The notes: a model not told the origin generated them from the sequence alone. A stretch of 28,475 nucleotides of DNA from a virus (IMGVR_UViG_3300007513_000151:1-28475), one strand, 5' to 3'; positions 10,688-28,439 are shown, counted from the first letter of the stretch. Translations and numbers: made by a program.

Positions 10688-13318
10688 TTAAACTCCTGTT
10701 GCTTGCCATGTAAATGAACCGTCTGCAAAATCTCCTGTTTGAGCATCCAAAAGGTACACTTTAAAGGTTGTAGGGTTAGCTACATCTGTAAAATCATAAA
10801 TTGCGGTATTTTGTCTACCGTTGTTATTCCCACCTGAAATATATTTAGGGGATACAGTTATACTATTAACATCTTTAAAAGATTTATTAAAAGTTACTGT
10901 AGCTCCTGTTGCTCTGTTTGCCCATGTAATAGACACATCTTCAGTAGCCTGGTCCCTAACCGTTCCAAGTCCTAAAGATATTGATTGCTTACTAATTTCC
11001 TTAAAACCTTTATTAGTAGAGCCATCATAAGTTATTTTTACCTTTACATATCTAAAAGAATTAGCTAGTAAAGAGGTATTTCCTGCTGTTCCTGCTGTCC
11101 AACCAGTATGATTAGTAATATCTGCTACTTCAAAAACAGTCTCACTATTTGTATAGTATAAAGTTGGAGTAGAGGATACAGCTGCGACCTTATCTTCCGC
11201 AGTTGTAGTCAAAGTTATAGTAGCAGTATCTATTTCTGTTCCCATATCCCACTTTTGATAATAAGTGGCAGTTTGTTCAGGTTTTACAAAATAAGCGTAT
11301 CCTGCTGTTACCTGTGCTTGAGGTGTTGCCCAACTGTTATTAACAAAGTGTTGTTGCCATGTTTCCGTAGTATTAATAGGTAATACTGCACTAGTATTAC
11401 TTTCATCCTCAATATTTGTCCAAGAAGCTGCAGAACCTTCTATCCAGCTATGCCCATTATTTTCACAATCAGTTTCATTATTATACACTCCTCCACTACA
11501 ATAACCCGCTGCTAGCGCACCAGTATTATACTTAGAATCAACTTCATTTAATACTTCAAAGTCTCTTGGTTCACTAACTTCTACTGATATGGATTGAGGA
11601 GTAGCATAATTACCTGCCAAGTCTTTAGTTCTTGCAAAATATTTATAAGTTCCAGAAGAGGTTTCAAAGAAAGAGTAAGTATTTGTATTTCCGACATTAG
11701 TAATATAAGTAGTAGTTGTTAAATAATCAGAAACTGTACAAGTTCCTGCTGCAGGACATCTATAAATATCATAAGATGTAATAGGCAAAGAAGTTGCTAC
11801 GGGGTCTGCCCATCTAAGTATAACATTATTATCAATAACTTGTGCAGTCAAAGAACCTGCTGTAATCTGATTAGGATTTGTTACTGGAACTGATATTCCT
11901 ACAGGTAAAGATATATTACCTATAGAATCATAAGCTACTAAATAAATAGACCTAGAACTTTCGCCCGACCCATTAGTCGGCCCCCAAGTTACTGGTGTAG
12001 AATACTTTGACGCAGTACCCGCTTTGGAGTTTCTCTCCCCTCTAGTAGACGTAAGTTTACTAGTAGTAGCATTCCAAGTAGGTAATTCCCAAAATATTCT
12101 AAAACTTGTAATAGGAGCAGTAGTAACTACTGGAAGAGTCCAGGTAACTTCTACAACTCCATTTGAAGATTTTGTAGAATAATCACTAATAGTTAACCCA
12201 GTAGGAGCGTTAGGACGAGTTACTGTAACATCTTCTATATCAGGTATATAATCACTTTCACCATTATTATACGCAATACCCCAATTTCCCGCCGAATCTA
12301 CAGGAACTACCCAATATCTTCTAATATCACTAGAAGTACCAGTAGTTGACGAAATAGCTCCGTTAGAGTTAGCAATTGTTGGGCCCCATTCTACTTCTTG
12401 TTTAAACTCTGTAGTTCCTAATTCTGATAAATAAGGGCTTCCTCTATTTTCAAATGTTGGCGCTGTTGTTCCTGTTTTATAATCTTGATAAAAAATTTTA
12501 TAATGTGATACAGGTAATTGAGAAGAAGTAATAGTAGGAGCTGTCCAAAAGACTCTCGCATCAACTTTAGTTCCTTCATCATTTTGAATAAATTGATGTG
12601 CAGCAGATAGTACAGTAGGAGGGTTTATTTGAATAGATTTTGAAATTTCATTTCCTGACTCATTCCCTGCTAAATCTAAAGCTTTTACAATAAAAGTTCT
12701 ATAAGCTGTTGAATCCCCACTTTCTCCCGTACCCCAAGTTACTGGAAAAGTTAATGTATTTGCAGGGTTAAATACGCCCTCTGTTGTTCCATGCCCAGTT
12801 GCTACTGCTCCTGCCCAACTAGTACTAGTATTACCTGTTCTATATTTAACTTGATAACTTGCAATATCAAATAAACTATTAGCTGGTTTAGGCCAAGTTA
12901 TAGTTAGCATACCATCCTCAATAGTATGGGATATAGTTTGTGAAGACCAAGTTGCTCCAGTTATTGATACTGTACGAGAAGTAGCATTAGTAGAGTATAT
13001 TCCTGAAGTATCCACTGCTTTTATAAGAAATGTCATACTACCCAAAGGCATACTATCTGCAGTATATAACCAATTATTTGCTTTACCTCTAAATACTTCT
13101 GTGTTATTAGACAATGTAGTTTCCCAGCTGCCTCCCCCTGGAGCTTTTTGAATTACATACTCTTTGAAGTCTACATCTGTTATTTCTGGCCAACTAAAAT
13201 ATATAGCATTTGCACTGGGTCTAATTACTGGAAGATTGAAAACTACATCTGAAGGTGGAGCTACCTTACCTAGTATTGTAGCTGATTTAGTAGCAAATCT
13301 AGAAAATATGTTAGCCAT
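10688..13318 (-). CDS. FN3-repeat tail tip protein (split C-terminal half of J)
   Basis: This is an 876-residue protein. About five fibronectin type III-like units can be seen, at roughly 28-118, 122-232, 234-368, 370-480 and 485-582, marked by recurring (F/V)xW, PITSF/YxI and (V/A)xDSxGN motifs. A two-cysteine module lies at 607-625. Residues about 790-876 form a terminal beta domain (ATVTFNKSFKDVNSITVSPK ... GSFTWQATG) like the C-terminal end of J-type tip proteins. λ J carries FN3 repeats in its C-terminal half, whereas the J homologue just upstream here stops after its first FN3-like stretch. The two genes together therefore resemble one J split in two. The start overlaps the J stop as TAATG, suggesting coupled translation and stoichiometric assembly. 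The receptor-contacting part is probably near the C-terminus. Confidence 0.75.
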   Translation of the reverse strand: MANIFSRFATKSATILGKVAPPSDVVFNLPVIRPSANAIYFSWPEITDVDFKEYVIQKAPGGGSWETTLSNNTEVFRGKANNWLYTADSMPLGSMTFLIKAVDTSGIYSTNATSRTVSITGATWSSQTISHTIEDGMLTITWPKPANSLFDIASYQVKYRTGNTSTSWAGAVATGHGTTEGVFNPANTLTFPVTWGTGESGDSTAYRTFIVKALDLAGNESGNEISKSIQINPPTVLSAAHQFIQNDEGTKVDARVFWTAPTITSSQLPVSHYKIFYQDYKTGTTAPTFENRGSPYLSELGTTEFKQEVEWGPTIANSNGAISSTTGTSSDIRRYWVVPVDSAGNWGIAYNNGESDYIPDIEDVTVTRPNAPTGLTISDYSTKSSNGVVEVTWTLPVVTTAPITSFRIFWELPTWNATTSKLTSTRGERNSKAGTASKYSTPVTWGPTNGSGESSRSIYLVAYDSIGNISLPVGISVPVTNPNQITAGSLTAQVIDNNVILRWADPVATSLPITSYDIYRCPAAGTCTVSDYLTTTTYITNVGNTNTYSFFETSSGTYKYFARTKDLAGNYATPQSISVEVSEPRDFEVLNEVDSKYNTGALAAGYCSGGVYNNETDCENNGHSWIEGSAASWTNIEDESNTSAVLPINTTETWQQHFVNNSWATPQAQVTAGYAYFVKPEQTATYYQKWDMGTEIDTATITLTTTAEDKVAAVSSTPTLYYTNSETVFEVADITNHTGWTAGTAGNTSLLANSFRYVKVKITYDGSTNKGFKEISKQSISLGLGTVRDQATEDVSITWANRATGATVTFNKSFKDVNSITVSPKYISGGNNNGRQNTAIYDFTDVANPTTFKVYLLDAQTGDFADGSFTWQATGV
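11435..11506 (-). repeat. Two-cysteine module, copy in FN3 tip protein
   Basis: The module encodes CSGGVYNNETDCENNGHSW (C607, C618, W625), which fits C-x10-C-x6-W exactly. It lies between the last FN3 unit and the C-terminal half. Confidence 0.8.
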
Positions 13319-15822
13319 TAGTAGATTCTCCTAGTTTTTACTCGAAACTCTAAGTTTCCTGCAGGTGCGTCCTCAATAACCATACTTGTAGCAGTTGTTT
13401 CCCCTAAAGAGAACCAATTAGATACTGGGTCAGTTCTCCTCCATTCAACATAATAACTAGCAGTATAAGGATATAAAGTTGTAGTTCCTGCAATTACAGG
13501 AGCTGTCCAACTAAACGTTGCTCTATTTTTAAGGGTATTCCTAGAATCTAAATATAATTCTTCATCTATTGCTAAATTATCGGGTTCTGGAACTTTTTCT
13601 TCTGGGTCAGGTAAAATACTAGTAGACTTAGCTGAAAAAGCTATATTTTCTTCAATTAAATTATACTTTGCAACATGGTATTTTAAAGCACTTATTTCAA
13701 CTATATTTGACTCAGCTTCCCTCAAGGATAAAACTCTAAAGTCTTGGGCTTCTACATTGCCCATTTCTTCTAAAATCCACATATATTCCGTAGTAGGAGT
13801 ATTTGTAAAACTGTCATCAAAAGTTATTTCAGTAACATCTGCAGAAGCATAGTCCCAAGTTCCATCCTCAGAAATAGGTCTAGATTCTACCCAAGTAAAA
13901 GGTTTCCATTCATTATCTATATGTGCATTAAGACATGTTTCCTGTGTAGTTTCTGATTGCTTTATACCATTACGCACACAAGCTGCTTCCGCATTAATTA
14001 AAGAAAGATTATAAGTAGGTCCCGCCGTCCAAGTTGCAGAATTAGCTTCACAAGTAGCTTTAGTAGTATAAGAATTATTACTACAAGTTCCCCCTGTTAA
14101 TGCTGTAGCATTATCTAATTTAATAAGACTACTTGTACTATTAGAAGCTACTCTTCCCCCATACCTAACTCCTGCTCTAGAAGGGTCTGCTATTTTTATT
14201 AAGTCTCCAGGACGAACTCCTGCTCCCTCCATTCCTGTTTTAAAAGTTACAGTTTCAGTTTCATGTTTTTCAGTATATAGTATCCATTTACCTATTCTAC
14301 GCGCCTGGGACTGTGAAGTACAACCTACAGCTCTAACATTAGTAGAAAATATTTGGTTATTAGCCGCTACAATTCCTGCGGCATCTTCAACATATTCCAC
14401 ATTTTGTTTATATAAATCTTCTGGGTTATTCCAAGTAACTAAAGCTACATTATGTCTTTGTTTACGAGAGGTTCCTTCATAGCTAAATAACCCATCAATT
14501 ACATTAGCTTCACTAAAATTCATTATAGGGTCTTTTGGAGCATCCTGAACTGGAGTTATCATTCCTTCTTGCCAGTATAACATACCACGAAAAATTGAAG
14601 CTATATCACTAACAATTTTATAAGCTTCTTCAGCAGATTGTAAGTATAAATTACAAGTAAATCTTGCTTCTTTATTCCCCCAACCATCATCAACTCCTTC
14701 AAAATTTCCTTGGTTATTTACTGCATCACAATATTTTGCTATATCATATAATGCCCACTTATCTATTTGACTAGAAGAAAGCCAGTTTCCTAGCCCATAT
14801 CTATTTTCAGTACATAAATCATAGAGTATCCAAGCAGGATTGCATGTCCATTCAGTATCAAAGGTACCGTCCCAAGTACCATTATATAAGGTAGTACCAA
14901 CTTGAGTACCTGTCCAAGTACCCCCTGCTGCCTCACAAGTGTCCTTCCGTCTATACCCACCTAAGGAACAGTGCCCTGGGTCATAAGAAGTATAATTACT
15001 AGGAACTTTTACTTTTACTCCTTTTATTTCGTAACCTCTGGTTGGTACACTATTAAATTGTCTAGAGTCTATTTGAGTCGCAATAAGAGCGCTATTCGGG
15101 TAAGTTAACCTATTATCAATTATTTGTGTGTAGGAACCCCAATATAACTCGTTAGTTATTTTAGAGCTAGAAGGGTCACTAGTAGTTCTTTCTACCTTTA
15201 TAGATATAGTAGTAAACCCCGAAGATTTCCATGCTGCAGGGATATCTAACCTATAAGCTCTTTCATACTTAGTAGTAGTTTTTCCCGAAATACTATGGGA
15301 TTTTGCTAAGTACCAACTTCCTGAACTGTTTTTATCTAAGTATATTTTATAACTTACAGAAGAACCATGTATGTCTCCGTTATCTGCATCTACTTCTGTT
15401 AATGCATTAACGTACAGAGTTACCCTAACTGCATCTACTGTAGTAGAATTAAAAGTACGTACTATAGGACCGGGAGACCCATTCTTTACCTGAGTCTCAA
15501 CTGAAGTAGTTGATTCAGTGCCATGAAACCCTGGTATAGAAGTTTGCGAGTTTGTTCCTTCTCTAGAAGTATAACTAAAATCATCAAAATTGTAAGTTCC
15601 GCTAGCATCCTGTAAAGGAGTATTATCTAAATAAATGGATTTAGCTCCATTAATTAAACCAACAACTTCTCCCTCAGATACTAAATCAATTATTCTAGCT
15701 TTAGAAACTGAAAATAGAGTATCGTCGTCTTCTATAGGTGATCTGCTTCCGCCACCGCCTTTACCGCCGCCGCCTCCACCGCCGCCGCCTCCAGAACCTC
15801 TAATCCATTCACTTTCACTCAT
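13318..15822 (-). CDS. J: λ J-like tail tip attachment (host specificity) protein
   Basis: This is an 834-residue protein. After a Gly-rich start (residues 9-25) it follows λ J closely: RIIDLVSEGEVVGLINGAKS, then SYTQIIDNRLTYPNSALIA, KVPSNY, WDGTF, NPAWILYDLCTENRYGLGNW, KWALYDIAKYCD, RHNVALVTWNNP, a VEYVEDAAGI segment and RPGDLIKI...GGRV. The tip protein forms the hub at the tail end and reaches the receptor. Compared with λ (1132 residues) it lacks most of the FN3 and C-terminal part, which appears in the next gene. Three two-cysteine modules interrupt it at residues 283-305, 577-602 and 615-645, each where λ J has a loop. The start overlaps the stop of I (TAATG). Confidence 0.9.
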   Translation of the reverse strand: MSESEWIRGSGGGGGGGGGGKGGGGSRSPIEDDDTLFSVSKARIIDLVSEGEVVGLINGAKSIYLDNTPLQDASGTYNFDDFSYTSREGTNSQTSIPGFHGTESTTSVETQVKNGSPGPIVRTFNSTTVDAVRVTLYVNALTEVDADNGDIHGSSVSYKIYLDKNSSGSWYLAKSHSISGKTTTKYERAYRLDIPAAWKSSGFTTISIKVERTTSDPSSSKITNELYWGSYTQIIDNRLTYPNSALIATQIDSRQFNSVPTRGYEIKGVKVKVPSNYTSYDPGHCSLGGYRRKDTCEAAGGTWTGTQVGTTLYNGTWDGTFDTEWTCNPAWILYDLCTENRYGLGNWLSSSQIDKWALYDIAKYCDAVNNQGNFEGVDDGWGNKEARFTCNLYLQSAEEAYKIVSDIASIFRGMLYWQEGMITPVQDAPKDPIMNFSEANVIDGLFSYEGTSRKQRHNVALVTWNNPEDLYKQNVEYVEDAAGIVAANNQIFSTNVRAVGCTSQSQARRIGKWILYTEKHETETVTFKTGMEGAGVRPGDLIKIADPSRAGVRYGGRVASNSTSSLIKLDNATALTGGTCSNNSYTTKATCEANSATWTAGPTYNLSLINAEAACVRNGIKQSETTQETCLNAHIDNEWKPFTWVESRPISEDGTWDYASADVTEITFDDSFTNTPTTEYMWILEEMGNVEAQDFRVLSLREAESNIVEISALKYHVAKYNLIEENIAFSAKSTSILPDPEEKVPEPDNLAIDEELYLDSRNTLKNRATFSWTAPVIAGTTTLYPYTASYYVEWRRTDPVSNWFSLGETTATSMVIEDAPAGNLEFRVKTRRIY
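13888..13980 (-). repeat. Two-cysteine module, third copy in J (diverged)
   Basis: The module encodes CVRNGIKQSETTQETC followed by LNAHIDNEW (C615, C630, W639). Spacing is longer than in the other copies (x14 and x8) and it retains the ETTQETCL core. Confidence 0.65.
14017..14094 (-). repeat. Two-cysteine module, second copy in J
   Basis: The module encodes CSNNSYTTKATCEANSATW (C580, C591, W598), an exact C-x10-C-x6-W. Bases 14045-14091 match 17585-17631 and 27736-27782 at about 39 of 47 positions each. Confidence 0.85.
14905..14979 (-). repeat. Two-cysteine module, first copy in J
   Basis: The module encodes CSLGGYRRKDTCEAAGGTW (C285, C296, W303), an exact C-x10-C-x6-W. It lies between the conserved VPSNY and WDGTF motifs, where λ J has a short connecting loop. 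Confidence 0.85.
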
Positions 15823-16484
15823 TAGTAATCTTCCGCATTCATTCCTGAACTAATTACAGCCCCACCGACCATAAGTTGTCCGTAACATAAAGGAATTGCC
15901 ACACCTTGTTGAGTAGTATTTACTACACCACCAAAACTATAGTTTGACTTTTCTTCTGCATCGGGTTTTGGAGTAGGAGCCAATAGTTGAGCTATACCTC
16001 CTAACATTAATCCAAATCCTAATTTCATAGCCATACCTGAAGTAGCTGCTCCTAGGCTCCCTAAAGCTGCTCCAGTTGTAGCACTTACCGCTGTGGCACC
16101 TCCATGTAATACTGCTCCTGTTGTTCCTACAGCTCCCGCTGAACCAGCAATAGTAGTCGCTAGCCAAGGTGCTGCTACCATTAAGCCTACACCAAGTATT
16201 ACCTTACCTAAACCACCTTTCTTTGCCCCAAGTACAACAGGTACAATTTTTACCTCTTGTCTACCTGAGGGGTTATAAATCTCTTCTTCTTTTTCTAAGT
16301 AGGTCTTACCAACCATTACTTTATATCCCATGCCTCTTTCATGAGATGAGCAAACAAATTGTCTAAAACCAGGGTTATTTGCTGCTAAAGCCTGCATAGC
16401 TTCTGAAGGCGAATTGATATCTAAAGACCAATCTCTCCCGTATTTTTGTGCTAATTCCCCGTAAAGGGTTACTTTCTTTAACAT
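15822..16484 (-). CDS. I: λ I-like tail assembly protein
   Basis: This is a 220-residue protein placed between K and J as in λ. The N-terminal 85 residues (KKVTLYGELAQKYGRDWSLD, EAMQALAANNPGFRQF, GYKVMVGKTYL, VKIVPVVLGAK) form the family's ubiquitin-like-looking domain. Residues about 88-165 are Gly/Ala-rich and hydrophobic (LGKVILGVGLMVAAPWLATT). The C-terminus GVAIPLCYGQLMVGGAVISS is a typical ending. In λ, I is needed for assembly of the tail tip with L, K and J but is not retained in the mature virion. The start lies 7 nt inside the K gene, so the two are probably coupled. Confidence 0.85.
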   Translation of the reverse strand: MLKKVTLYGELAQKYGRDWSLDINSPSEAMQALAANNPGFRQFVCSSHERGMGYKVMVGKTYLEKEEEIYNPSGRQEVKIVPVVLGAKKGGLGKVILGVGLMVAAPWLATTIAGSAGAVGTTGAVLHGGATAVSATTGAALGSLGAATSGMAMKLGFGLMLGGIAQLLAPTPKPDAEEKSNYSFGGVVNTTQQGVAIPLCYGQLMVGGAVISSGMNAEDY

Positions 16485-17194
16485 AATGATTTGTGCCTTA
16501 AATGATGGGTAGTATGCTTACGCCAGTACCCTCCGTATAGTTCTCTATTTGATAACCTACCATGAACATGATGAAGAATTTTGTCGTCTCCGATGAAAAG
16601 TGCCGCATGGTTAGGCACAGGTGAAACTAATTTTATCAAAAATATATCATATTTTCGTATATCTGTTTCATCTTTTATCTGGACAAAACCTTGCTCTTCA
16701 TAGTTATCTAAGTATCTATTCTCTCCTTTTAACCACCACTCGTCTTTACCCGAAATACATTCAAAATTTATATTTTTTTCTTTTTTATAAAAATCTCGTA
16801 TCAAAGTACAGCAATCTAAAATTCCATAATGAAAATGTCTTCCTACATAAGGTGCTTCATATCCATTTGGCTCCCAACTAAATAATTTGTTACCTGGCCA
16901 ACTTAGTATATACCAAGGTTTTTGAGACGTTTCACACGCTACTTTATCTGCTTCTGAAGGGTAACAATCTTCATGTGGATGAGAATGACAAATACCAATA
17001 ATTTCCCCAGTATCCTCTGCATCTGCATAACTAACTGGGTCCAGTATAAATTGTTCTTCTGCTGATTCAGCTAAATTTTTTGCTCGAAAATACCGTTCTT
17101 TTCCTTTGGAAGTTACTATAAGTAGTCCACATGCTTCTCTTGGAAATTCTTCTTCGGTATGTTTTCTAAATTCCTCTAATGTTTCCGACTTCAT
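16478..17194 (-). CDS. K: λ K-like tail tip protein: JAMM peptidase plus NlpC/P60
   Basis: This is a 238-residue protein with two enzyme-like domains. Residues 1-100 are a JAMM/MPN domain: E20 in FPREACGLL, then H70-S-H72-P, S80 and D83 (HSHPHEDCYPSEAD), the full zinc-site pattern. Residues about 115-230 are an NlpC/P60 domain with catalytic Cys C128 in GILDCCTLIRDF, His H196 in PNHAALFIG, and H208/H209. In λ-like phages K acts at the tail tip, probably cutting peptidoglycan during assembly or DNA entry. All key residues appear intact. The spacing to L is 5 bp; the C-terminus is His-rich (HTTHHLRH). Confidence 0.9.
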   Translation of the reverse strand: MKSETLEEFRKHTEEEFPREACGLLIVTSKGKERYFRAKNLAESAEEQFILDPVSYADAEDTGEIIGICHSHPHEDCYPSEADKVACETSQKPWYILSWPGNKLFSWEPNGYEAPYVGRHFHYGILDCCTLIRDFYKKEKNINFECISGKDEWWLKGENRYLDNYEEQGFVQIKDETDIRKYDIFLIKLVSPVPNHAALFIGDDKILHHVHGRLSNRELYGGYWRKHTTHHLRHKSLC

Positions 17195-17199
17195 CGGAA

Positions 17200-18126
17200 T
17201 TAGCCCATTTTCATTCCTGCACCTGGAAATCCCCCGAAAGGAACTTCTTGAGGCTCTGGAAATCTAAGTTCACAAGCTGTAAAAGTTTTTGCACATACAT
17301 CTAATGCGGCGTTATTAGTAGATACATTAGCTTCTGTCCAATAGTTACTCCCACTATACCCACACTCTGTTCCTTTATAAACCCACGGACATGTATTAGC
17401 AATTACTGACCTACCAGGCAATTTGACCCCTTGTACATCATGGGCTGCCGTAAGTTCAAATTCTATGTGCGTTTTAGTTTCTAAAGCTTTTCTATCAATA
17501 TACCATATTTCTTCTGCAAAATATGCAGTATCATCTGCTAAAGCACTCGCATACCATATGCCAGGTGTCCAAGTACCAGAATTAGATTCACAAGTTGATT
17601 GAGTAGTATAAGCAGTGTTACTACAAGTACCACAAGTGGTAGATGTGTAAGTTGTCCACGTTCCTGCAGAACCATTTTTTGTTGCATCTAAACAATCTGC
17701 TTTACTTAAACTGTAAGGGGTACCTCCGGATTCTCCTGTACATTTTCCACCTGCTGGGTAGCCTCCTATATAACAATATGCATCTAAGTATTTAGCAAAA
17801 GTTCTTTTTCTAGTGACTTTTGAGCCAACTAGATCATCATAACTGGAAAGAACTCCTGATAAAAGAGTGGTAATATTAGCTACTGTTAATTTCGGTCTAG
17901 GAATTGCTCCTTTTCCTGTAAATTCAAAACCATCTGCTTCTATCGGAAAGGAAGAATACCTATTTCCTTGCCACACTATTTCTTGGTAATTTTCATTAAT
18001 ACCAGAATGCCACCTAAAAATAGGTTCTGTAGAAGGAGCTGTACCTGTAGACATATCTAGTTCAAATAAATCAACTAAATCTCCAGGCTCTAGCTTATTA
18101 ATATCGCTTATAATCTTGTCTGCCAT
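17200..18126 (-). CDS. L: λ L-like tail tip protein with Fe-S ligands and an insert
   Basis: This is a 308-residue protein. It aligns with λ L: VWQGNRYSSFPIEADGFEF, TGKGAIPRPKLTVANI, LVGSKVTRKRTFAKYLDA, LPGRSVIANTCPWVYKGTEC, GYSG and CAKTFTACELRF. λ L-type proteins bind an iron-sulfur cluster through four cysteines. Here C246, C255, C278 and C285 are in the matching places, so the site looks intact. Between KYLDAY and YFAEEIWYID about 77 residues (117-193) with six further cysteines are inserted. Without them the protein would be about 231 residues, against 232 in λ. The extra cysteines could compete for metal or be buried in their own mini-fold; which is unknown. Start overlaps M (TAATG). 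Confidence 0.92.
   Translation of the reverse strand: MADKIISDINKLEPGDLVDLFELDMSTGTAPSTEPIFRWHSGINENYQEIVWQGNRYSSFPIEADGFEFTGKGAIPRPKLTVANITTLLSGVLSSYDDLVGSKVTRKRTFAKYLDAYCYIGGYPAGGKCTGESGGTPYSLSKADCLDATKNGSAGTWTTYTSTTCGTCSNTAYTTQSTCESNSGTWTPGIWYASALADDTAYFAEEIWYIDRKALETKTHIEFELTAAHDVQGVKLPGRSVIANTCPWVYKGTECGYSGSNYWTEANVSTNNAALDVCAKTFTACELRFPEPQEVPFGGFPGAGMKMG
17548..17778 (-). repeat. Inserted segment in L with two two-cysteine modules
   Basis: This codes for about 77 inserted residues. Copy A is C129-x15-C145-x11-W157 (diverged). Copy B is CSNTAYTTQSTCESNSGTW (C168, C179, W186), an exact C-x10-C-x6-W. Two more cysteines are at 118 and 165. Bases 17585-17631 in copy B match the J and connector copies at about 39 of 47 positions. 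Confidence 0.85.
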
Positions 18127-18668
18127 TATGGTTCAAATACTCTAACGAAAGTTGCGTTTATATCTTTATATCCCAGTACAGGAGTAGTTACATTCCATTG
18201 ATTACAAATATACTTCTTGTATGGGTATATAGTGTAAGTTTCTTGGTTTGCCATAATATCTCCACTTAAAGATAAAGTAGTAGCACTATCAATTGCTGTA
18301 ACAGTAGCCGTATTAGAGGAAGAATCAGTAACCGTAGTATTCAAGTACCTATTAGTAAAGTATTGGGTAGTATCTATAAGCTTATTAGTTGTAGCACTAG
18401 TAGTAGTACTAGAAATCTCTGTGTCTGGAGGGTACCAATCAAATGCTGTTACGCCTGCTTGGTCTTCCAGAAATTTTATTATCTTATTAGCATCTGCATT
18501 ACTTCTACTATTCCAAGTTAGCCTCCAACTTTCTGGTAAATTATTAATACCAGCAGCTACTCTTTGTTCATATCCATCCCCATATTTGGCTGTAAGTACT
18601 CTAGGAGCTTGATCTGTTGAGAGCCCTCTATCTGGTATTATATTTACATCTGTATTAAAATTTGCCAT
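18126..18668 (-). CDS. M: λ M-like minor tail protein with a 67-residue insert
   Basis: This is a 180-residue protein. Residues 1-82 (RVLTAKYGDGYEQRVAAGIN, SWRLTWNSRS, FLEDQAGVTAFDWYPPD) and 150-180 (YKKYICNQWNVT, INATFVRVFEP) match the λ M family, in which FxWxPP is followed directly by the (Y/V)xCxxW strand. Here residues about 83-149 separate those two motifs. The insert is Thr/Ser-rich with ATVTAIDSATTLSLSGDI and ETYTIY. Removing it leaves about 113 residues; λ M has 109. M works at the tail tip, completing it onto the tape measure with L. The insert type differs from the cysteine modules in L and J. Confidence 0.9.
   Translation of the reverse strand: MANFNTDVNIIPDRGLSTDQAPRVLTAKYGDGYEQRVAAGINNLPESWRLTWNSRSNADANKIIKFLEDQAGVTAFDWYPPDTEISSTTTSATTNKLIDTTQYFTNRYLNTTVTDSSSNTATVTAIDSATTLSLSGDIMANQETYTIYPYKKYICNQWNVTTPVLGYKDINATFVRVFEP
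18222..18422 (-). repeat. Inserted ATVTAIDSATTLSLS-type domain in M
   Basis: About 67 residues are inserted between FDWYPPD and YKKYICNQW. It reads as a small beta unit with a NKLIDTTQYFTNRYLNTTVT strand pair, followed by ATVTAIDSATTLSLSGDI. I recall similar segments in unrelated phage proteins, which would fit a mobile domain, but that needs a search. Only one copy is seen here. Confidence 0.75.
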
Positions 18669-18673
18669 AACTA

Positions 18674-21600: not shown

Positions 21601-23560
21601 TAGATTTTACAACATTTTCCACATTTTGAACCATAGAATCCTTTATCCCTTTACCAAAAGCAGATTTAAACCCATCAATAAGTTTATCCCAAAAACCCAT
21701 CTTCTCTACATCTACTGCTAGTTTTTGAAAGGCCGTTTTAGTAGAATTATAGATTTGATCAGATACATTTGCAGCAAACTCTGCAGATTTTAAAGTTTGT
21801 TGTAAGCTTTCACTTGTTCCATCTAAAGTTATTAAAGCGTCTTTTTGGCGTATAGTATCTAGAACTCCTTTTAACTCGGTATTTAGTGTTTTTGAAGCTT
21901 CGGCTGCTCTAGCAAAGGGAGTATCAAAGTCATGAAAAATACCTATAATAGATTTTGCTATACTTAAAAATATAGTAATACCAAAAAATGCACTCATCAG
22001 TTTTCCAGCCATTACTGTGAGAAACTTTAAGGCTCCTGAAAGTACTCCTACTGCAAGACTAGCCTTTTTTACTGCTCTTTCATACTTAGAAATCTTATTT
22101 TTTGCATTATCAGTTGCTCTCCCTGCTTCTCTCCATTGCCTTTTAAGTATTTTTAAAGATAATATAGTACCTCTAAATACCCCATGTTTTTGTATAGCAG
22201 CTCCTACAGTTCTCCAAGCTTGTATTTGAGTAGCCGCAAATATTGAAGCTGATTTCTTCATAGTAAGAAAAGCTCTATTAACTTTACTAGCTGCGCCTGC
22301 AACATTGTGTAATCCTAAAGCTCCCTTTCTTATTTCTATATTAAGTTTTTTGAAAGCTTTTTCTTTCTTTACTAATTCTGCTTCAGAAATACCTTTTAAT
22401 CCCCCAAAGGTTACTACTCCTCCCTGTAAACTACCTCTAGCTTGTTGTAAAGTAGCTCGAGTACTCGCTATAGGGTTTCTACCAAAAGCTGCTCCCCTTG
22501 CAGCTTCAGGTAGTATACCTCTAGCAGTGGAAGCAATCTCGGCTTGAGACATTGCGCCTCTGAATTTGCCCATACGTTTTTCAATCTTAGCAATATTTGT
22601 AGACATCTTTGCTGGTAGAGCTGCCATTTTATTTCCAAATTGTGTAAATGCAGGAAATATTTTACCTACTAAACTTTTTGCTATCATTGCCATTAGTACA
22701 ATAATTAAAGACTTAGATTCAGATAGGAATTTCATAATAGGACCAACTACATCAACCAGTTTAGCACTCATAGTATTTATTAAATCCATAACTGTAGAAG
22801 ATAGTTGTTGAAAATAATTAGGAGGTAATTTATCTGCAATTCCTCCAAATTTATCCTCTAACTGTCCCATAATAGCAGTATTTCGTGCCATTAGTTTTTC
22901 ACTTTCCGTCAATTCGGCAGTTGATTTATTCACTGATTCAGCATAATCTTTATAAACTTTGTCTAGTCGAATAATAACACCAATTTCGTCAAGTATTTCT
23001 GGTTCAGCCTTAACAATACCACGAGTCAAACGATCCATAGTATCAGTCATAGAACGACCCAAAGCAGTAGAGGAATCTACCGCTGCTTTAGTCATTTTTA
23101 CAATTTGTCCAGTACCTAACCCAGCTGTTGTAGCTAAAGCTACACTGGTGGAAGCTTCTTTGAAGTCTAACATGAATTTAGAAGCTTTTTGAACTTGTTT
23201 CGCGATATTCCCCATATCTTTACCGGTCATTTTAGCATATTCTTGCTGACCTTTTATTAATAGAGAAAAGTTGGCTGCTCGTGATAGAGCGTTGAATGCG
23301 GCAGTTAGGGCGAATACCCTTGCTGCGACTTCTGCATAAGCAGGAACCAAGATACCTTGCATACCTTGAGCTTGTTTAGAAAAGTTTTTAGAAGAATTAG
23401 AAGATTGCCTAGAAAGCCCCTTCATATTACGGTCATACTCTCTAGAACTCTTGGAAGCTTTTTGAGTAGACTTATTTAAGGCATCAATCTTCTTTTTAGT
23501 TTGTTTGAGGTTACCTTTATCATCTACCTCAATTACAATTTTTTTCTTTACATCAGCCAT
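18674..23560 (-). CDS. Tail tape measure protein
   Basis: This is a 1628-residue protein, by far the longest gene, at the expected place after the G/G-T chaperones. The N-terminal 65 residues are Lys/Ser-rich and helical (KKKIVIEVDDKGNLKQTKKK). Long Ala-rich helical stretches follow (GILVPAYAEVAARVFALTAA). Hydrophobic, possibly membrane-inserting segments lie at about 283-300 and 501-542 (SLAVGVLSGALKFLTVMAGK). The C-terminus has RAFANGGI, PTLGMVGEGKYNEAVVPLPD, VTVNVSVDANGQSG and a terminal QQRPGGLLSSV, like λ-family tape measures. It sets tail length and is ejected ahead of DNA. At roughly 1.5 Å per residue it predicts a tail of about 240 nm. The ATG follows the T-frame stop with no gap (TAAATG). 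Confidence 0.95.
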   Translation of the reverse strand: MADVKKKIVIEVDDKGNLKQTKKKIDALNKSTQKASKSSREYDRNMKGLSRQSSNSSKNFSKQAQGMQGILVPAYAEVAARVFALTAAFNALSRAANFSLLIKGQQEYAKMTGKDMGNIAKQVQKASKFMLDFKEASTSVALATTAGLGTGQIVKMTKAAVDSSTALGRSMTDTMDRLTRGIVKAEPEILDEIGVIIRLDKVYKDYAESVNKSTAELTESEKLMARNTAIMGQLEDKFGGIADKLPPNYFQQLSSTVMDLINTMSAKLVDVVGPIMKFLSESKSLIIVLMAMIAKSLVGKIFPAFTQFGNKMAALPAKMSTNIAKIEKRMGKFRGAMSQAEIASTARGILPEAARGAAFGRNPIASTRATLQQARGSLQGGVVTFGGLKGISEAELVKKEKAFKKLNIEIRKGALGLHNVAGAASKVNRAFLTMKKSASIFAATQIQAWRTVGAAIQKHGVFRGTILSLKILKRQWREAGRATDNAKNKISKYERAVKKASLAVGVLSGALKFLTVMAGKLMSAFFGITIFLSIAKSIIGIFHDFDTPFARAAEASKTLNTELKGVLDTIRQKDALITLDGTSESLQQTLKSAEFAANVSDQIYNSTKTAFQKLAVDVEKMGFWDKLIDGFKSAFGKGIKDSMVQNVENVVKSIVGMGGGAFMLELMDKEGIAKLLGDPGKLGVAADQNYLYSEQAMNFEKRLERFSLVFAEDEEMRQKLLEQVELMRDEFALTNLSIKDFGETLTKYSKDFKNILESLVKKTPWYDMAKSQKNIVGQWGSGNITNTAALQQINQAGLFKSNYANKHLQKAVNAFQAEGGDTDANANILMKILGSDPAKAFMMITGVDAIKNNLAWAASAEKVAGHQAELNKLKKVGNSTLQKQAQLQRLVLAEELYQKEELYKLNKKNKAFDKGGELEGLEASALREIQLTKDKIAATEAIHVTQLKYRDSLTATTTAMWELEEATRADGEAEGILAWRIDNKIFDERTKRINKYITSLDKTINRTIALANFTYDYNNALDGQRARMDAAQDLALQYSSFAGVKDAGLRNELMGSSVAKGIGTGNYKQKRTGALFSQFPELRSMPGVVSLAFEVEKLRAENLSNEAYVIAERHLLETKYLKAQEDLRDAIWKERAATFGAAMNTIANSFGSAVSGAFNDIFMNKGFDMSKFRTTLAQGFASAGSKLIGDMAQKAVFGNKGFLANMLRPMLGEDWTNTLFPKSELEMAQERTNYLKNLWERGVKILGFSPYTQTEIPSTAGNYGLNWNAGVNEPGVEGALTSPLFGGGWRIGSGATNESGVDSIWRAFGFDQGSGTHRARGNLSGRNKVAEVSEVAAAIESGVLAAEAKGLMIAVAEAQLAQQKKTNEMLEMHLIGPAWGKTTSKGPGSMEETLRGEGRAELLFGNTWLGPAGNEEIGKGVNTNLNLLLEGQKSLEELTTGTSTSLVNIEHNTSESGTLGGFMNALGVMDGGKKLGGVITNSILGSPSIFNKGPGQNKFNNWTGNNSASSQILGMILQSFLPFGSGGIASGGFRAFANGGIANRPTLGMVGEGKYNEAVVPLPDGRAIPVKGGTGNNVTVNVSVDANGQSGVTESTGAGAKELGYLISQAVQSELVDQQRPGGLLSSV

Positions 23561-23962
23561 TTATTGGTTTCCTGTAGTCGGTTTTATCTTGTCTTTTTTA
23601 TTAACGCTTTCCATATATTTAGCGTCAATAATTTTAACTATTTTTAATACTTCTTTTTGGTCTTCAATTTCAAGAATATCCATAATTTCTCGAATACCCG
23701 ACATCTGCTTACCAAAATAAGAACCACTCATGCCGTCCCATTGGTCAGTTAAGTAATTCCAAACCAAAAAAGCAAATTGAATGGTTAATGGGAAATTTGC
23801 TGAGTCTCCCATGTCTTTATCTAATTCAGACCAGTCGACTTCTATACCGTTCTCCTCCATCTGAATCATCATTTCTATACGCTTTTTACGGCTAATACCT
23901 GTACCAACGCCTCGAAAATATTCTTCTATACGGTCTGTCCAGTACTCTAACTGGTCGTCGTA
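23561..23962 (-). CDS. Tail assembly chaperone T domain, made as G-T by -1 frameshift
   Basis: This frame is entered by a -1 shift at AAATTTT (23968-23962) near the end of the G gene. It then reads YDDQLEYWTDRIEEYFRGVG and TGISRKKRIEMMIQMEENGI to a stop just before the tape measure gene, 133 residues in all. The fusion would be about 277 residues (144 from G plus 133). An ATG pair at 23872 could start a 103-residue protein, but it has no AGGAG-like RBS, and upstream codons in the same frame are open back into G. That argues for frameshifting. The G-T product bridges tape measure and tube subunits during assembly and is absent from the mature tail in λ. Confidence 0.88.
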   Translation of the reverse strand, partial: YDDQLEYWTDRIEEYFRGVGTGISRKKRIEMMIQMEENGIEVDWSELDKDMGDSANFPLTIQFAFLVWNYLTDQWDGMSGSYFGKQMSGIREIMDILEIEDQKEVLKIVKIIDAKYMESVNKKDKIKPTTGNQ

Positions 23963-23968
23963 AAATTT
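23939..23968 (-). promoter_or_regulatory. Programmed -1 ribosomal frameshift signal
   Basis: The slippery heptamer A AAT TTT (23968-23962) fits X XXY YYZ in the G reading frame. After a 7-nt spacer comes CCAGT-TAGAGT-ACTGG (23954-23939), a perfect 5-bp stem with a 6-nt loop. The zero-frame TAG stop is inside the loop. This has the layout of a phage G/G-T frameshift signal with a stimulatory hairpin. Confidence 0.88.
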
Positions 23969-24393
23969 GCTAAATCACCTACTGTATCTGTAAGCCACGC
24001 ATCAAAATCATTAGAATTCTCCATTAAAATTCGAGCATTTTCTAAACTATAGGGTAGAGTTGCTTCCATATCAGTCAATTTATCCTCATCTATAGGGATA
24101 ATTTGAGCTAAATATTTCATTTTTAATCCTGACCATCCTTTGATGACTGCTTTACAATATTCTTTGAGGAAGATTTCTTCGTTTAAATCTTCTTCAGGCT
24201 GTCTAGTTCTACGATTAATTTTTGTAGATACTGCCTTTTTACGAAGTTTTAGCATTTCCTCTCTTGCTAAATAAGTTACATTAACCTTAAACCCATCATA
24301 ACCAGGAAAGTCAATAGTAGCTGTCTTACTTGGAGTTAGTAAATCAGATAAATTCTGAAATGACGCTCCACTCGGGGTAGTTGTTTCTGTCAT
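23947..24393 (-). CDS. Tail assembly chaperone G
   Basis: This is a 148-residue, mostly helical protein between the major tail gene and the tape measure gene, the fixed place of λ-type G chaperones. Residues 25-45 form a beta pair (KTATIDFPGYDGFKVNVTYL). Basic and acidic helices follow (REEMLKLRKKAVSTKINRRT, EEIFLKEYCKAVIKGW). It ends DTVGDLANFTTTS at a TAG stop. Ribosomes that slip four codons before that stop continue into the T frame. The protein coats the tape measure during tube polymerisation. The RBS is weak (AAAGGT, 10 bases from the ATG) and it follows an intrinsic terminator, both consistent with lower expression than the tube protein. Confidence 0.85.
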   Translation of the reverse strand: MTETTTPSGASFQNLSDLLTPSKTATIDFPGYDGFKVNVTYLAREEMLKLRKKAVSTKINRRTRQPEEDLNEEIFLKEYCKAVIKGWSGLKMKYLAQIIPIDEDKLTDMEATLPYSLENARILMENSNDFDAWLTDTVGDLANFTTTS

Positions 24394-24419
24394 AATAATA
24401 TTACCTTTTGTTATAAAAT

Positions 24420-24455
24420 TTAAAAAATAGCGGGGTACATGAGATACCCCACTAT
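24420..24455 (-). terminator. Intrinsic terminator after the major tail protein gene
   Basis: Reading with the genes, ATAGTGGGGTA (24455-24445) pairs with TACCCCGCTAT (24437-24427) over a 7-nt loop, an 11-bp stem with one G-T pair. It overlaps and runs into TTTTTT (24427-24422). It begins 11 bases after the tube gene stop. Partial read-through would lower expression of the chaperones and tape measure relative to the tube. Confidence 0.92.
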
Positions 24456-24466
24456 ATAAAACTACG

Positions 24467-25606
24467 TTATACGGTAGTTAAACCTGTATAAACAATTGTA
24501 GCTTCGTCGTTTCCTGAACCAAAACCGTCTTCTAATGCTGTCCAATTAATAGTAACTCCCATAACGTCAGCTGTATCTAAAGATGGTAACTCTAGATGAG
24601 CTTTCGGCATAGTAAACAATACTTTTGGAGCTGAAGCTCCGCCAATACTTAAAGCAATATTAAAAACATTAGTAATAGTATCAGGGTCTGCAGCATTAAT
24701 ATCCGCTAGGATATCGTCATACATAACCTTGGTACTTAAAGCAGCAGTATCTAGGTAAGCAGTAAAGTTACCTGAAACGGCTCTTGTGCCAGTTTGGTGG
24801 CCAATTGGAACATTAATTCTACCTAAAGATTCTGGCGTCACATATGAGATACCATTATCAATAGTTACATTACCACCAGTGAGTGCAAAGGTGTATGTTT
24901 TAGAGCTGCCTGAAATACTAGATGTTAGTGTAACAGTGCTTAGTCTATTTAGAATAAAGTCCGCGGTTGCTGGGGCAAGTGCGTATCCGTCTGTAGCGTG
25001 ATCCGATGTTTCAGGTGTAGCTGATTGAGCTACAGCATCAATTGCTTCTGCATAGCCTGACCATGTAATCTGTGCAATACCATCAACATCAAAATCCATT
25101 GATGCTGAATTTACACACATATTTTTTAGTCTATAATTAGTACTAGAATCAGAGAAAACAAACCAACCAGTTAATTTTAATAACTGATTTTTATTTGATT
25201 CTTCTAAATCAACAGTACATTCCGTAGCAGTAGATGTAATACCACCAGTACCTACATTGTCCGTTTTAACACCAGATACTAACGCGTTCCATAGTATTTT
25301 TTCAGTCATACCATGAAGGTCAGTACTTAGGTCGTCAATTCTAGGACGCATATAAGTAGTGAAACTCCAATCTACGGGCTCAATTGATGTATTAAAAATC
25401 GCTTGACCACGTTTTGGAGATGCACCTGCTTCGTTCAACGTTACGTTTTGCGTACCCGTTGCTTGTGAGAATGAGAATCCGTCTAAAACAGGAATCTCAA
25501 ACGTATTCGCCTCACTAGGCTCCCTTCCAGCACCGTCCCATGCGGTGGCTGTAGAAGCTTGGTAAGATAGAATAACTGTTGCATTTCTGCTTAATGAAAG
25601 TGCCAT
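24467..25606 (-). CDS. Major tail tube protein
   Basis: This is a 379-residue protein beginning MALSLSRNATVILSYQAST. It contains FEIPVLDGFSFSQATGTQNV, NEAGASPKRGQAIFNTSIEP followed by VDWSFTTYMRP, FDVDGIAQITWSGYAEAI, VSGNFTAYLDTAAL and a C-terminal FTMPKAHLELP...VTINWTALEDGFGSGNDE. The all-beta composition and the 'DWSFTTYM(R)P' and 'SGxFTAYLD' strands are typical of tube subunits of long-tailed phages. It is preceded by a very strong AAGGAG site in a purine-rich leader and followed at once by a terminator, as expected for a protein needed in the highest copy number. It is larger than λ V (246 residues). Confidence 0.85.
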   Translation of the reverse strand: MALSLSRNATVILSYQASTATAWDGAGREPSEANTFEIPVLDGFSFSQATGTQNVTLNEAGASPKRGQAIFNTSIEPVDWSFTTYMRPRIDDLSTDLHGMTEKILWNALVSGVKTDNVGTGGITSTATECTVDLEESNKNQLLKLTGWFVFSDSSTNYRLKNMCVNSASMDFDVDGIAQITWSGYAEAIDAVAQSATPETSDHATDGYALAPATADFILNRLSTVTLTSSISGSSKTYTFALTGGNVTIDNGISYVTPESLGRINVPIGHQTGTRAVSGNFTAYLDTAALSTKVMYDDILADINAADPDTITNVFNIALSIGGASAPKVLFTMPKAHLELPSLDTADVMGVTINWTALEDGFGSGNDEATIVYTGLTTV

Positions 25607-25666
25607 AAAGGTCTCCTTCTTCTCTTCTTGCCATTGTAATAATTTTGACTATTGTCTGTTATTACG
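25607..25666 (-). promoter_or_regulatory. Leader of major tail gene with strong purine-rich RBS
   Basis: The 60-base gap holds AAGAAGAGAAGAAGGAGACC directly before the ATG, so the Shine-Dalgarno AAGGAG is embedded in a purine run. Upstream, GTAATAA and TTATTAC form a 7-bp inverted repeat with a 16-nt loop. I see no convincing promoter hexamers in the gap. Confidence 0.6.
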
Positions 25667-26122
25667 TTAGGCTACTTGATACCTGACTTCGCAGGTTATT
25701 TCACCAACCCCATACGGTGCCAATAAGCCTTCATCCGTAGCGATTGATAAAACTGTTAGTTGTTCAGTTGTTTTGCCAGTATCATATGTTAAGGTCTGGT
25801 CTCTATCCAACTGATTTTCAATTTCGTATAGAACTTTTTCAAGTTCATCTAATGGCTCTTCGCCATGTACATAGGCTCTAATATTAATGCCTAAATGCCC
25901 CCACTTAAATCCCCCAGGGTGGTATTCTCTTACTTCATTGCCAGGAACTACACTAACAAAAGGGAAGTCGTTCACTTCATCCCAAAATATAAGTTTGTTA
26001 GTTACATTTTCAGCTAAGTCTACCGAATAATTAGTAGTAGTACTACCTATACTACCACCATCTATCTTTTTTAATTCTGTAATAATAGCATTAGTAATTG
26101 CTGAACGGGCTTTTGCTGCCAT
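25667..26122 (-). CDS. Tail terminator protein
   Basis: This is a 151-residue alpha/beta protein. An N-terminal helix (RSAITNAIITELKKID) is followed by strands FPFVSVVPGNEVREYHPGGF and LGINIRAYVHGEE, then a helix LDELEKVLYEIENQLDR and a final strand pair (LSIATDEGLLAPYGVGEITC, then EVRYQV). This resembles λ U/T5-type tail terminators. The gene lies directly before the major tail protein gene, the normal place. The protein caps the tube end, stops polymerisation and joins the tail to the head. Its start overlaps the upstream stop as TAATG, with AAGGAG inside the last upstream codons. Confidence 0.8.
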   Translation of the reverse strand: MAAKARSAITNAIITELKKIDGGSIGSTTTNYSVDLAENVTNKLIFWDEVNDFPFVSVVPGNEVREYHPGGFKWGHLGINIRAYVHGEEPLDELEKVLYEIENQLDRDQTLTYDTGKTTEQLTVLSIATDEGLLAPYGVGEITCEVRYQVA

Positions 26123-27420
26123 TATACTCTCCTTACTCTAATTCCTAATTTATGGCTTAAGGTTTCTCTCGCGATTTCTCGTATAGAAGCCGCAATTAAT
26201 TTTCGTGGGTCTCTTCTAAGTGACCCTTGTGCAAATCCTCTCTCAAAAGTTTGGTACGGTGCTTTCATATAAGTATAGTATGCCGTTAAAGCGCCTTGTC
26301 TAGATTGAGTAACTTTTTCTACAGCAACGGATTCTGCAAATCTTCCTGTCCTATACACCAACGCCCCTCCTTTGCCCATATTATCCGCCACTTGCTGTTT
26401 AATCTGTGCGTTAAGTAAATTTTCTATATTTAATGTGGAAGTAAATTGCCCTCCTGAAGTTCGTAAAGTTCTAGAAGGAGGTACGGGCGTTTTACCTACT
26501 TTTTCTTTTTTTCTATTTTTATAAGTAGTTGAAACAGAAGTAGTTTTTCTTAAGGATTTTTTACCTTTTTCTAAAATGGCAGCAGTCAAAGCTTGGTCTA
26601 CCCATTTCATAGTAGAAGGACTTGAATCGTATTCTAAAGCTATGTCTTCTAATAACTTTATTACACGGCCATTCTTCCCTAAATCTTTCTGCTCCTCAAC
26701 TGATTTTCTAGTATTATCATCAATATCTCCAAGTTTTATATGAGCTGTAAAAGTTCCTTTAAACTGACCATCTATATCGTAAAATTTTCTAGCATCTAAA
26801 TTTAGTTTAAATCCTTTTAAAGTATTAACGGTACGTAGTCGCCCAAGAATTTTATTCTTACCACCACGAGTCATATCAGGATGATTAAACCCAGAAAATA
26901 TGGCTCCTAGTACAGGATAAGCAGCCTTGGAGTAAGCATGCCCTTCCCCGTGCTCCATAACTAAAGCCCTACTTAGACGTCTGCCAGTTCGATAAGTACC
27001 TCCCTTCTTACTTTTTCCGCCTCTAGGTACATTACTATTTCTTGTGTTTCCAATTATATTTTTAAATCTAGTTTGAAAACGTGAAGACATAGCAGTCTTC
27101 CAACGATTAAATAATTTGTACCTATTTACTTCTGTAGACTTACTTCCAGCAGTAGTAAAAATAGTTTTACCAAATCTATTAGCCTTTATAAGAAATTTAC
27201 CTGCACTAACTTGTTTCATCATATCATCTACGATAAAATCGTACATGTCATCTAAAACTGAATCTCCTTCAGGTATGTTGTATTCTTTAGATAAAACTCC
27301 TTTTATTGTAGCTTCATGAAATTCTAATTCTTGTTCTTGCTTATCTAATTCACTAGCAACACTATCTATGATAGTTTGCTTCATTTTTCTAATGGCTTTG
27401 CTTAACGCTGGATTGCTCAT
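26122..27420 (-). CDS. Large neck / tail-completion protein candidate
   Basis: This is a 432-residue, very basic protein between the connector and the tail terminator, where HK97 gp10/λ Z-type neck proteins are found. Those are much shorter (about 110-190 residues). The last 100 residues (YRTGRFAESVAVEKVTQSRQ, LTAYYTYMKAPYQTFERGF, RDPRKLIAASIREIARETL) resemble such tail-completion proteins, with RTGRFAxSV as the best motif. Residues 1-300 are helical and Lys/Arg-rich (NRGG-like patches such as RGGKSKKGGTYRTGRRLSRA) and I do not recognise them. They could bind DNA or hold assembly functions. Start overlaps the connector stop (TAATG). Confidence 0.55.
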   Translation of the reverse strand: MSNPALSKAIRKMKQTIIDSVASELDKQEQELEFHEATIKGVLSKEYNIPEGDSVLDDMYDFIVDDMMKQVSAGKFLIKANRFGKTIFTTAGSKSTEVNRYKLFNRWKTAMSSRFQTRFKNIIGNTRNSNVPRGGKSKKGGTYRTGRRLSRALVMEHGEGHAYSKAAYPVLGAIFSGFNHPDMTRGGKNKILGRLRTVNTLKGFKLNLDARKFYDIDGQFKGTFTAHIKLGDIDDNTRKSVEEQKDLGKNGRVIKLLEDIALEYDSSPSTMKWVDQALTAAILEKGKKSLRKTTSVSTTYKNRKKEKVGKTPVPPSRTLRTSGGQFTSTLNIENLLNAQIKQQVADNMGKGGALVYRTGRFAESVAVEKVTQSRQGALTAYYTYMKAPYQTFERGFAQGSLRRDPRKLIAASIREIARETLSHKLGIRVRRV

Positions 27421-28439
27421 TAGCTAATGTGCCTATAATGCTCCAAGATACGTTTTATGTGTGGAGGGAATTCCGAGTGGAGGGTCTGAGTCTTTGTTAC
27501 ATTCTTTATCTCAGAACCTGGCATTGATTTAGCTGGAGTCGCTTCTTTCTTTAAGTAATATGTTATTAAATCATATACTGCTAACCTTAAATCTCCTGGA
27601 ACAGAAGAGTATCCACCTTTATACACCAGCTTAACTGATTTAGTACCTGAAGGAAAAGCTACTCTAGTACGAGTAATCTCTTGACCATCAGCATCTAACT
27701 CATAATCCCTGTCCGCAGTCCAGTATTCACCAGCTGCTTCACAAGTTGCTTGAGTAGTATAAGAAGTATTGCTACATTCACCAGTCCATCTTTCGGCAGT
27801 GAAAGTCCAATTGTCTCCTGTTGTATGAGTGTTAGTCGTAGCAAAGGTTATTGCAACGTCTCCCTCTAAAATTTGACTAGAGCCTGTTATTCCAACGCTA
27901 GTTGCCTTCCAATTTGAACCACCATCCCTTGACCATTTAAACGTGTCTGGAGTTCCTTGACTATCAATTTGTACTTTATAACTACGCCCTACTTCACCTG
28001 ACGACGTATTTGCGTTGTAACCAGTGATTGTTAGGTCGTTTTGTCCCGAACCCGTAAAGGTATCGTTATTAATACAAGCTGCTTCAGTAGTCTTGCTTGA
28101 AAGGGTACATTGAGGAGTACCAGAACTCAATAGATAGTAATTGTTACTATCTGCGAGGTTTAATTCGACGGTTTGTTTATCCGTCTTTGAGCTATCACGC
28201 TCATATAATTGTATAACTTCCGCAATAGGAAGTTCTAACGGAAATATAGAAGTTTCGCCTTTGACTATATCAAAGTACTCCGTCTTTTCCGTACTATAGT
28301 AGTCGATAAAAGTACGACCACAATAGGTTTTTATAAGTGTACTAACTTGGGACTTTAAATTATTTATAGCCGAGTCTCGTGTGTTACTATTTATTCCTGC
28401 GTATGTTTTATAATCACTTACTGTAACTAAATCTGCCAT
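27420..28439 (-). CDS. Head-tail connector (HK97 gp6-like) with large insert
   Basis: This is a 339-residue protein. Residues 1-104 (VTVSDYKTYAGINSNTRDSA, LKSQVSTLIKTYCGRTF, FPLELPIAEVIQLYE) and 243-339 (DRDYELDADGQEI, FPSGTKSVKLVYKGGYSSVP, GDLRLAVYDLITYYLKKEAT) make up a typical gp6-like connector of about 200 residues. This is the ring under the portal that helps close the head. Residues about 105-243 are an extra block in the usual place of a short loop. The block contains a two-cysteine module, a TPDTFKWSRDGGSNW-type domain and a second two-cysteine module. The frame is intact. The RBS is weak (GGGAATAAAGAATG). Confidence 0.8.
   Translation of the reverse strand: MADLVTVSDYKTYAGINSNTRDSAINNLKSQVSTLIKTYCGRTFIDYYSTEKTEYFDIVKGETSIFPLELPIAEVIQLYERDSSKTDKQTVELNLADSNNYYLLSSGTPQCTLSSKTTEAACINNDTFTGSGQNDLTITGYNANTSSGEVGRSYKVQIDSQGTPDTFKWSRDGGSNWKATSVGITGSSQILEGDVAITFATTNTHTTGDNWTFTAERWTGECSNTSYTTQATCEAAGEYWTADRDYELDADGQEITRTRVAFPSGTKSVKLVYKGGYSSVPGDLRLAVYDLITYYLKKEATPAKSMPGSEIKNVTKTQTLHSEFPPHIKRILEHYRHIS
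27714..27791 (-). repeat. Two-cysteine module, second copy in connector
   Basis: The module encodes CSNTSYTTQATCEAAGEYW (C222, C233, W240), an exact C-x10-C-x6-W. Bases 27736-27782 match the L and J copies at about 39 of 47 positions each. Confidence 0.85.
27795..27992 (-). repeat. TPDTFKW-type domain inserted in connector
   Basis: This codes for residues 150-215 (SYKVQIDSQGTPDTFKWSRD, then GGSNWKATSVGITGSSQILE and THTTGDNWTFTA). It reads as a compact beta domain sandwiched between the two cysteine modules. I recall similar segments in other phage proteins; a profile search is needed to confirm. Confidence 0.7.
28050..28118 (-). repeat. Two-cysteine module, first copy in connector (diverged)
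   Basis: The module encodes CTLSSKTTEAACINNDTFTG (C111, C122). The C-x10-C spacing is kept but the Trp is replaced by Phe at 128. Confidence 0.65.

Follow-up and report, generated by a model that had tools for sequence, protein, structure and literature searches.

A two-cysteine module in four virion proteins

Analysis of the viral stretch IMGVR_UViG_3300007513_000151:1-28475 (hereafter the window, i.e., the whole stretch of 28475 bases, a complete IMG/VR virus record with a guanine-cytosine content of 38%) led to eight copies of a short two-cysteine module. Two copies are located in the head-tail connector (conn1 and conn2), two in the minor tail protein L (L1 and L2), three in the central tail fibre protein J (J1, J2 and J3) and one in the tip protein (Table 1). 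The module is probably a minimal insertion unit of exposed loops, clasped by a disulfide, which was dispersed by old recombination and thereafter inherited mostly vertically. All eight copies were found where a first-pass annotation, made from the sequence alone, had placed them, and its five exact C-x10-C-x6-W copies (conn2, L2, J1, J2 and tip) were confirmed; residue shuffling of 30 window proteins gave a mean of 0.0105 exact matches, with a maximum of 1 in 2000 trials.

The four host proteins are mutually unrelated, as that annotation had also held. The connector belongs to HCP/phrog_442, L to Phage_tail_L and J to the lambda-J family, and the tip protein gave no significant family match in Pfam or PHROGs; its former "FN3" label finds no support in Pfam. 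L, J and the connector were each confirmed by comparison with solved lambda-type or neck structures, and fold searches matched the J model to lambda J and the connector model to neck proteins. Neck proteins of the PDB (170-195 residues) align on either side of the connector insert, which contains conn1 and conn2. Residues 126-205 of L form an insert of about 80 residues relative to the solved structures of lambda L and F2-pyocin L, and residues 279-309 of J (J1 with its flanks) stand where F2-pyocin J has a turn of two residues.

Among the copies without the exact spacing, both relatives and the predicted model support conn1 and J3 as divergent members. Specifically, conn1 is a genuine copy with a W to F replacement, because the relative L225 reads CTNGDYTTEAACINNDTF (CTNGDYTTEAAC..) at the same site. 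L1 is the weakest of the eight; it obtains no score from the module profile and is plausible as a copy.

Dispersal among viral and bacterial proteins

A profile built on the strict copies matched 264 times in the 5315 open reading frames (ORFs) of the fetched loci, which were partly selected by the motif, and not once in the reversed ORFs. Scans of IMG/VR DNA with two patterns led to 111 stretches for the first and 66 for the second (C-S-D-x2-Y-x4-[T/A]-C-x3-G-x2-W), the latter covering 2.9 million viral contigs, with no part played by motif-based choice of loci. When one extra codon was allowed in the second pattern, eight stretches were found. The frames of five of these are short or interrupted by stops; the other three are real copies with a loop longer by one residue. 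A mis-spaced variant of the pattern matched one viral and five genome stretches, which serves only as an informal background.

The two scans yielded 169 host ORFs, all but one with a stop-free motif. Clustering of these ORFs after masking of the modules gave 31 groups, including the stop-bearing chance match, and no pattern match lay between genes except for one chance match. At least 13 PHROG families were matched, among them J, L, head-tail adaptors (phrog_442, phrog_211), head closure Hc2 and Hc3, tail, tail fibre and virion structural proteins, and one labelled amidase. About half of the host clusters have no family, and the others are, with few exceptions, proteins of the neck, tail, baseplate or other virion parts. 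The proposal that a shared module is dispersed over unrelated proteins is thus borne out in about 30 IMG/VR clusters, comprising several unrelated virion proteins. The positions shared beyond C, C and W are ten or more (G-x-C-S-D-x-x-Y-T-T-K/Q-x-T-C-E-A-A-G-G-T-W-T), and both cysteines are jointly present in 133 of 133 unique profile-aligned copies spanning both positions, a biased sample. One contig of 158 kb (L121/G005) contains 23 profile matches, which lie in several ORFs of 587-2347 residues grouped near both contig ends.

Neither Pfam nor PHROGs nor NCBIfam lists the module as a separate entry, and the bare module gave no significant family in any of the three. In literature searches restricted to open-licence papers, which are weak evidence of novelty, no description of the motif was found. 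The first-pass annotation had taken the module for a candidate undescribed system; this holds for the three databases. The module does, however, extend beyond phages of this kind, as T4 gp8 has the same spacing (see below).

Bacterial carriers were also detected. The profile matched 10 of 369 genomes in the class of an Erwinia genome (Gammaproteobacteria; reversed profile, 0 of 369). For the phylum of a Clostridium genome the count was 0 of 378, and for that of a Chloroflexi genome 1 of 380, the single match being a type IV pilin-like protein. The bacterial carriers are mostly exported proteins, the ten of the Gammaproteobacteria including pilin-like (with several copies), autotransporter-like, LptD, PEP-CTERM and NosD-like proteins, which fits a disulfide formed outside the cytoplasm; carrier L232 resembles a phage structural protein. 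The type IV pilin-like carriers are L234:526-2010 (gammaproteobacterium, several copies) and L256 (Chloroflexota).

Gain, loss and alternative sites in relatives

Presence of the module varies among homologues at one and the same site for L2, J2 and the connector. L2 is present in 7 of 20 relatives and absent from 13 (among them L007, L009 and L011-L014), and a tree of L built from the flanks only requires at least two changes. J2 is present in the window, L002, L159, L009 and L011 and absent from relatives such as L004, L006, L016 and L020. L2 and J2 were gained or lost separately, because L009 and L011 carry J2 without L2, and L004 and L006 carry L2 without J2. The connector insert is missing from the 195-residue relatives L229 and L230; connector copies obtained by the pattern scan all include conn2 by construction. 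In the tip protein of L006, alignment showed the module in a divergent form.

Other relatives use different sites. In L, the module occurs at a second site in L031 and at a third in L033, L046 and L047, the J copy of L024 and L026 lies a few residues before the J2 site, and other modules are nested inside the J3 loop in L120, L026 and L147. The first-pass annotation had named two outcomes that would speak against its view, a fixed site with congruent phylogeny and a profile confined to a single family, and neither was found.

Predicted fold and proposed role

AlphaFold2 models of the connector and J, a check suggested in the first-pass annotation, gave the identical order of secondary structure in conn2, J1 and J2, i.e., a strand ending at Cys1, a seven-residue loop, a helix at positions 9-14, four residues and a strand starting at Trp19. 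J3 was predicted with the same strand-loop-helix-strand order. The module of 19-25 residues would consist of a short strand to Cys1, a loop, a six-residue helix with Cys12, a Gly-rich turn and a strand from Trp19. Because of this order its ends may lie adjacent as paired strands, and a unit with adjacent ends could be inserted at a turn of almost any exposed protein while leaving the fold undisturbed. The Cys1-Cys12 disulfide would form once the virion or exported protein reaches an oxidising environment and, with the Trp19 core, would pin the loop and harden exposed parts of tail, neck and baseplate. Recombination, either illegitimate or at short homologies, may have carried the unit from one virion gene to another; thereafter it would have been passed on vertically and now and then lost or converted. 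There are precedents both for virion disulfides that stabilise the particle (phage Milano, PMC10811340) and for the shuffling of fragments among phage proteins (PMC10684548).

Several points weigh against this explanation. Conn1 has no W, and the AlphaFold2 model shows no fold for it; confidence at the copies is moderate (predicted local distance difference test, pLDDT, about 55-79 at the copies and 66-69 for the models overall; predicted template modelling score, pTM, 0.30-0.47). The profile seeds were motif-selected copies, so that C, C and W are in part bound to be constant. The bacterial distribution could also reflect phylogeny, a profile without gp8-like seeds misses T4 gp8 in the PDB, and the unit is so short that convergence is possible.

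Alternative explanations

The cysteines could instead form crosslinks between subunits that lock the tail, as has been described for Agrobacterium phage Milano, where disulfides crosslink tail parts and stabilise the particle (PMC10811340). The hosts are indeed multimeric virion parts, and in both cases cysteines of tail or baseplate proteins would stabilise the particle outside the cell. However, the bonds of Milano are inter-subunit, at protein-specific positions and without a common sequence module. The constant C-x10-C in unrelated hosts and the joint retention of the two cysteines in the biased sample suit an internal pair, and exported bacterial proteins carry the module too, so we regard crosslinking as unlikely.

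It is also unlikely that the loop touches host surface molecules and is swapped to alter specificity. Such a binding or antigenic-variation role would agree with three hosts at the tail tip, with pilin-like and autotransporter-like surface proteins among the bacterial carriers and with the variable residues between the anchors. Copies are nevertheless also carried by neck connectors and head-closure proteins, which are remote from the receptor, and T4-like gp8 has one at a fixed site; moreover, they are under purifying selection and no hypervariation was seen. The antigenic or binding variation considered in the first-pass annotation finds no support in the sequence data.

Repeated selection of a common disulfide turn motif without common origin would account for the short length, the divergent copies and the wide host range including bacteria. 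Given ten or more shared positions beyond C, C and W, the exact spacing and zero matches in reversed controls, convergence appears decidedly improbable.

Concerning mobility, Rickettsia palindromic elements are short in-frame insertions in unrelated genes, being DNA palindromes conserved at the DNA level. The module is likewise a short in-frame insertion, but it is conserved at the protein level instead. Same-site copies have a mean DNA identity of 80% between genomes and are inherited vertically; different-site copies within one genome are about as alike as copies between genomes. The window's L2 has 84% DNA identity to its own J2 versus 75-79% to orthologous L2 (79% for the nearest relative), which suggests one conversion event between L2 and J2. 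Save for this suggestive case, within-genome copying was tested as a general process and not found. The ratio of non-synonymous to synonymous polymorphism (pN/pS) is 0.23 for conn2 and 0.19 for J1, similar to the flanks, substitutions being mainly synonymous. Neither DNA-level conservation nor a palindrome was found, and nothing was outstanding in RNA or DNA folding (z-scores -1.7 to 1.3). The synonymous-rich drift, the in-frame position of all true copies and the lack of a DNA palindrome indicate that the module is a unit of protein rather than a mobile element of DNA. A selfish mini-element copying itself in frame into genes, as the first-pass annotation had proposed, is thus highly improbable despite the short dispersed copies, a 65-nt trio in the window at 74-85% DNA identity and the closeness of L2 to J2, since differences are mostly synonymous, the 23 copies of the 158-kb genome share at most 64% DNA identity with each other, no palindrome or fold and no intergenic copies apart from the chance match occur, and same-site copies are vertical.

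T4 gp8 and known accessory domains

The module likely has a counterpart in T4 gp8 (Pfam Phage-Gp8, phrog_977), a baseplate wedge protein with a long-known structure. The gp8 chain 1N7Z contains an exact C-x10-C-x6-W (C142, C153, W160), and its residues 139-163 also share with the module the CS start, the KDEC segment, the GG-x-WTPS end and the location in a virion protein. Unlike the module, the segment keeps to a single position among the gp8 proteins examined and has no Y-T-T; in the portions of the literature consulted it is treated as part of a gp8 domain, and a description as a movable unit was not found there. Among cultured phages, tblastn matches led to wedge proteins of the baseplate. 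The exact motif occurs in T4-like gp8 of Serratia, Acinetobacter, Vibrio, Aeromonas and Klebsiella phages and of RB49, in gp10 of Yersinia phage P8 and in wedge proteins of Vibrio phage GR7B and Pseudomonas phage KoPa-5. Profile scores were 40 bits for GR7B, 23 for Vibrio D479 gp8 and 1-2 for RB49 and Muldoon, with reversed controls at 0.1 bit or below. The best PHROG for the bare consensus is phrog_977. In the PDB, a simple phmmer search with the consensus found nothing, and the profile recovered gp8 only when gp8-like seeds were included. As the profile without gp8-like seeds misses gp8, the link rests on spacing, phrog_977 and the intermediate gp8 proteins, and is not proven by score alone. 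The resemblance to gp8 is confined to the module, with no whole-protein homology of the hosts to the gp8 family. The bare consensus also aligns weakly with domain 3 of T4-like gp10 (Pfam Gp10_D3, profile positions 64-85), the exact motif being that of Yersinia phage P8 gp10.

Exchange of phage domains is usually described for larger domains, receptor-binding proteins and lysins. Phage Ig-like and BACON domains are independent units of about 80-100 residues that are not known to have a conserved disulfide. Like them, the module is an accessory to virion proteins of unrelated families and has been shuffled from phage to phage, and it acts like the known accessory domains of phage structural proteins, but it is smaller, at about a quarter of the size, and has a fixed cysteine pair. 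A unit of 19-25 residues in about 30 virion protein clusters would rank among the smallest documented shuffled protein parts. It would also account for the paired cysteines of virions from marine phages, allow a direct test in T4 gp8 of whether virion stability depends on redox state, and aid annotation of many unassigned virion proteins. We tentatively suggest that this uncatalogued mini-fold may be among the most widely reused virion accessories of tailed phages, a redox-set staple of exposed loops in siphophage necks, lambda-type tips, T4-type baseplates and bacterial pilins, with neighbouring loop hot spots accepting other mini-modules.

Genomic context and other observations

The minus strand of the window carries structural genes for the connector, tail completion, major tail protein, probable tape measure (1628 residues), M-like, L, K (JAB + NlpC/P60), I, J, tip protein and many fibre-like genes.

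Table 1. Module copies, host genes and other features of the window.
Feature	Position	Strand	Description
conn1	28056..28109	-	connector residues 111-128, CTLSSKTTEAACINNDTF; divergent, F in place of W
conn2	27720..27776	-	connector residues 222-240, CSNTSYTTQATCEAAGEYW; canonical; profile 47.9 bits; predicted strand-loop-helix-strand
L1	17656..17742	-	L residues 129-157; C-x15-C-x11-W; probable divergent module
L2	17569..17625	-	L residues 168-186, CSNTAYTTQSTCESNSGTW; canonical; scored by profile
J1	14914..14970	-	J residues 285-303, CSLGGYRRKDTCEAAGGTW; canonical
J2	14029..14085	-	J residues 580-598, CSNNSYTTKATCEANSATW; canonical
J3	13906..13980	-	J residues 615-639; C-x14-C-x8-W; divergent
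tip module	11444..11500	-	tip protein residues 607-625, CSGGVYNNETDCENNGHSW; canonical
connector insert	27699..28118	-	residues 108-247: conn1, beta-rich TPDTFKWS domain, conn2
TPDTFKWS domain	27790-28050	-	beta-rich; between conn1 and conn2
connector, host gene	27420..28439	-	head-tail connector / head-completion; Pfam HCP, phrog_442 head-tail adaptor
L, host gene	17200..18126	-	minor tail protein L, Phage_tail_L
J, host gene	13318..15822	-	central tail fibre J; phrog_31; lambda J by fold
tip protein, host gene	10688..13318	-	876 residues; adjoins J
M-like protein	18126-18668	-	second mini-module
fibre-like gene	3325-4530	-	near-duplicate N-terminal region
fibre-like gene	4543-4887	-	near-duplicate N-terminal region

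The TPDTFKWS domain of the connector has distant matches in a fibre of Roseobacter phage CRP-6 and in structural proteins of Cellulophaga phages and is possibly another mobile domain. A second mini-module, TTTSATTNKLIDTTQYFTNRYLNTTVTDSSSNTATVTAIDSATTLSLSGDIMANQETYTIYP, is present in the M-like protein. It is found again in L of L033 and in the J proteins of L009, L011 and L045, where it occupies the J3 loop, which also accepts two-cysteine modules.

The C-terminal cysteines of L (residues 246, 255, 278 and 285) resemble the C..C..W search pattern and were rejected as separate conserved cysteines; they align with conserved cysteines of lambda L, which bind an iron-sulfur cluster. The module itself has two cysteines per copy, not the four ligands of a [4Fe-4S] or metal site as in lambda L. 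Other C..C..W-like strings of the window were judged not to be copies. Finally, the two adjacent fibre-like genes of Table 1 share a near-duplicate N-terminal region (GHxSGTGVLTxxAPNTSTDRTITLPDATGTLL...) and are apparently tandem paralogues.

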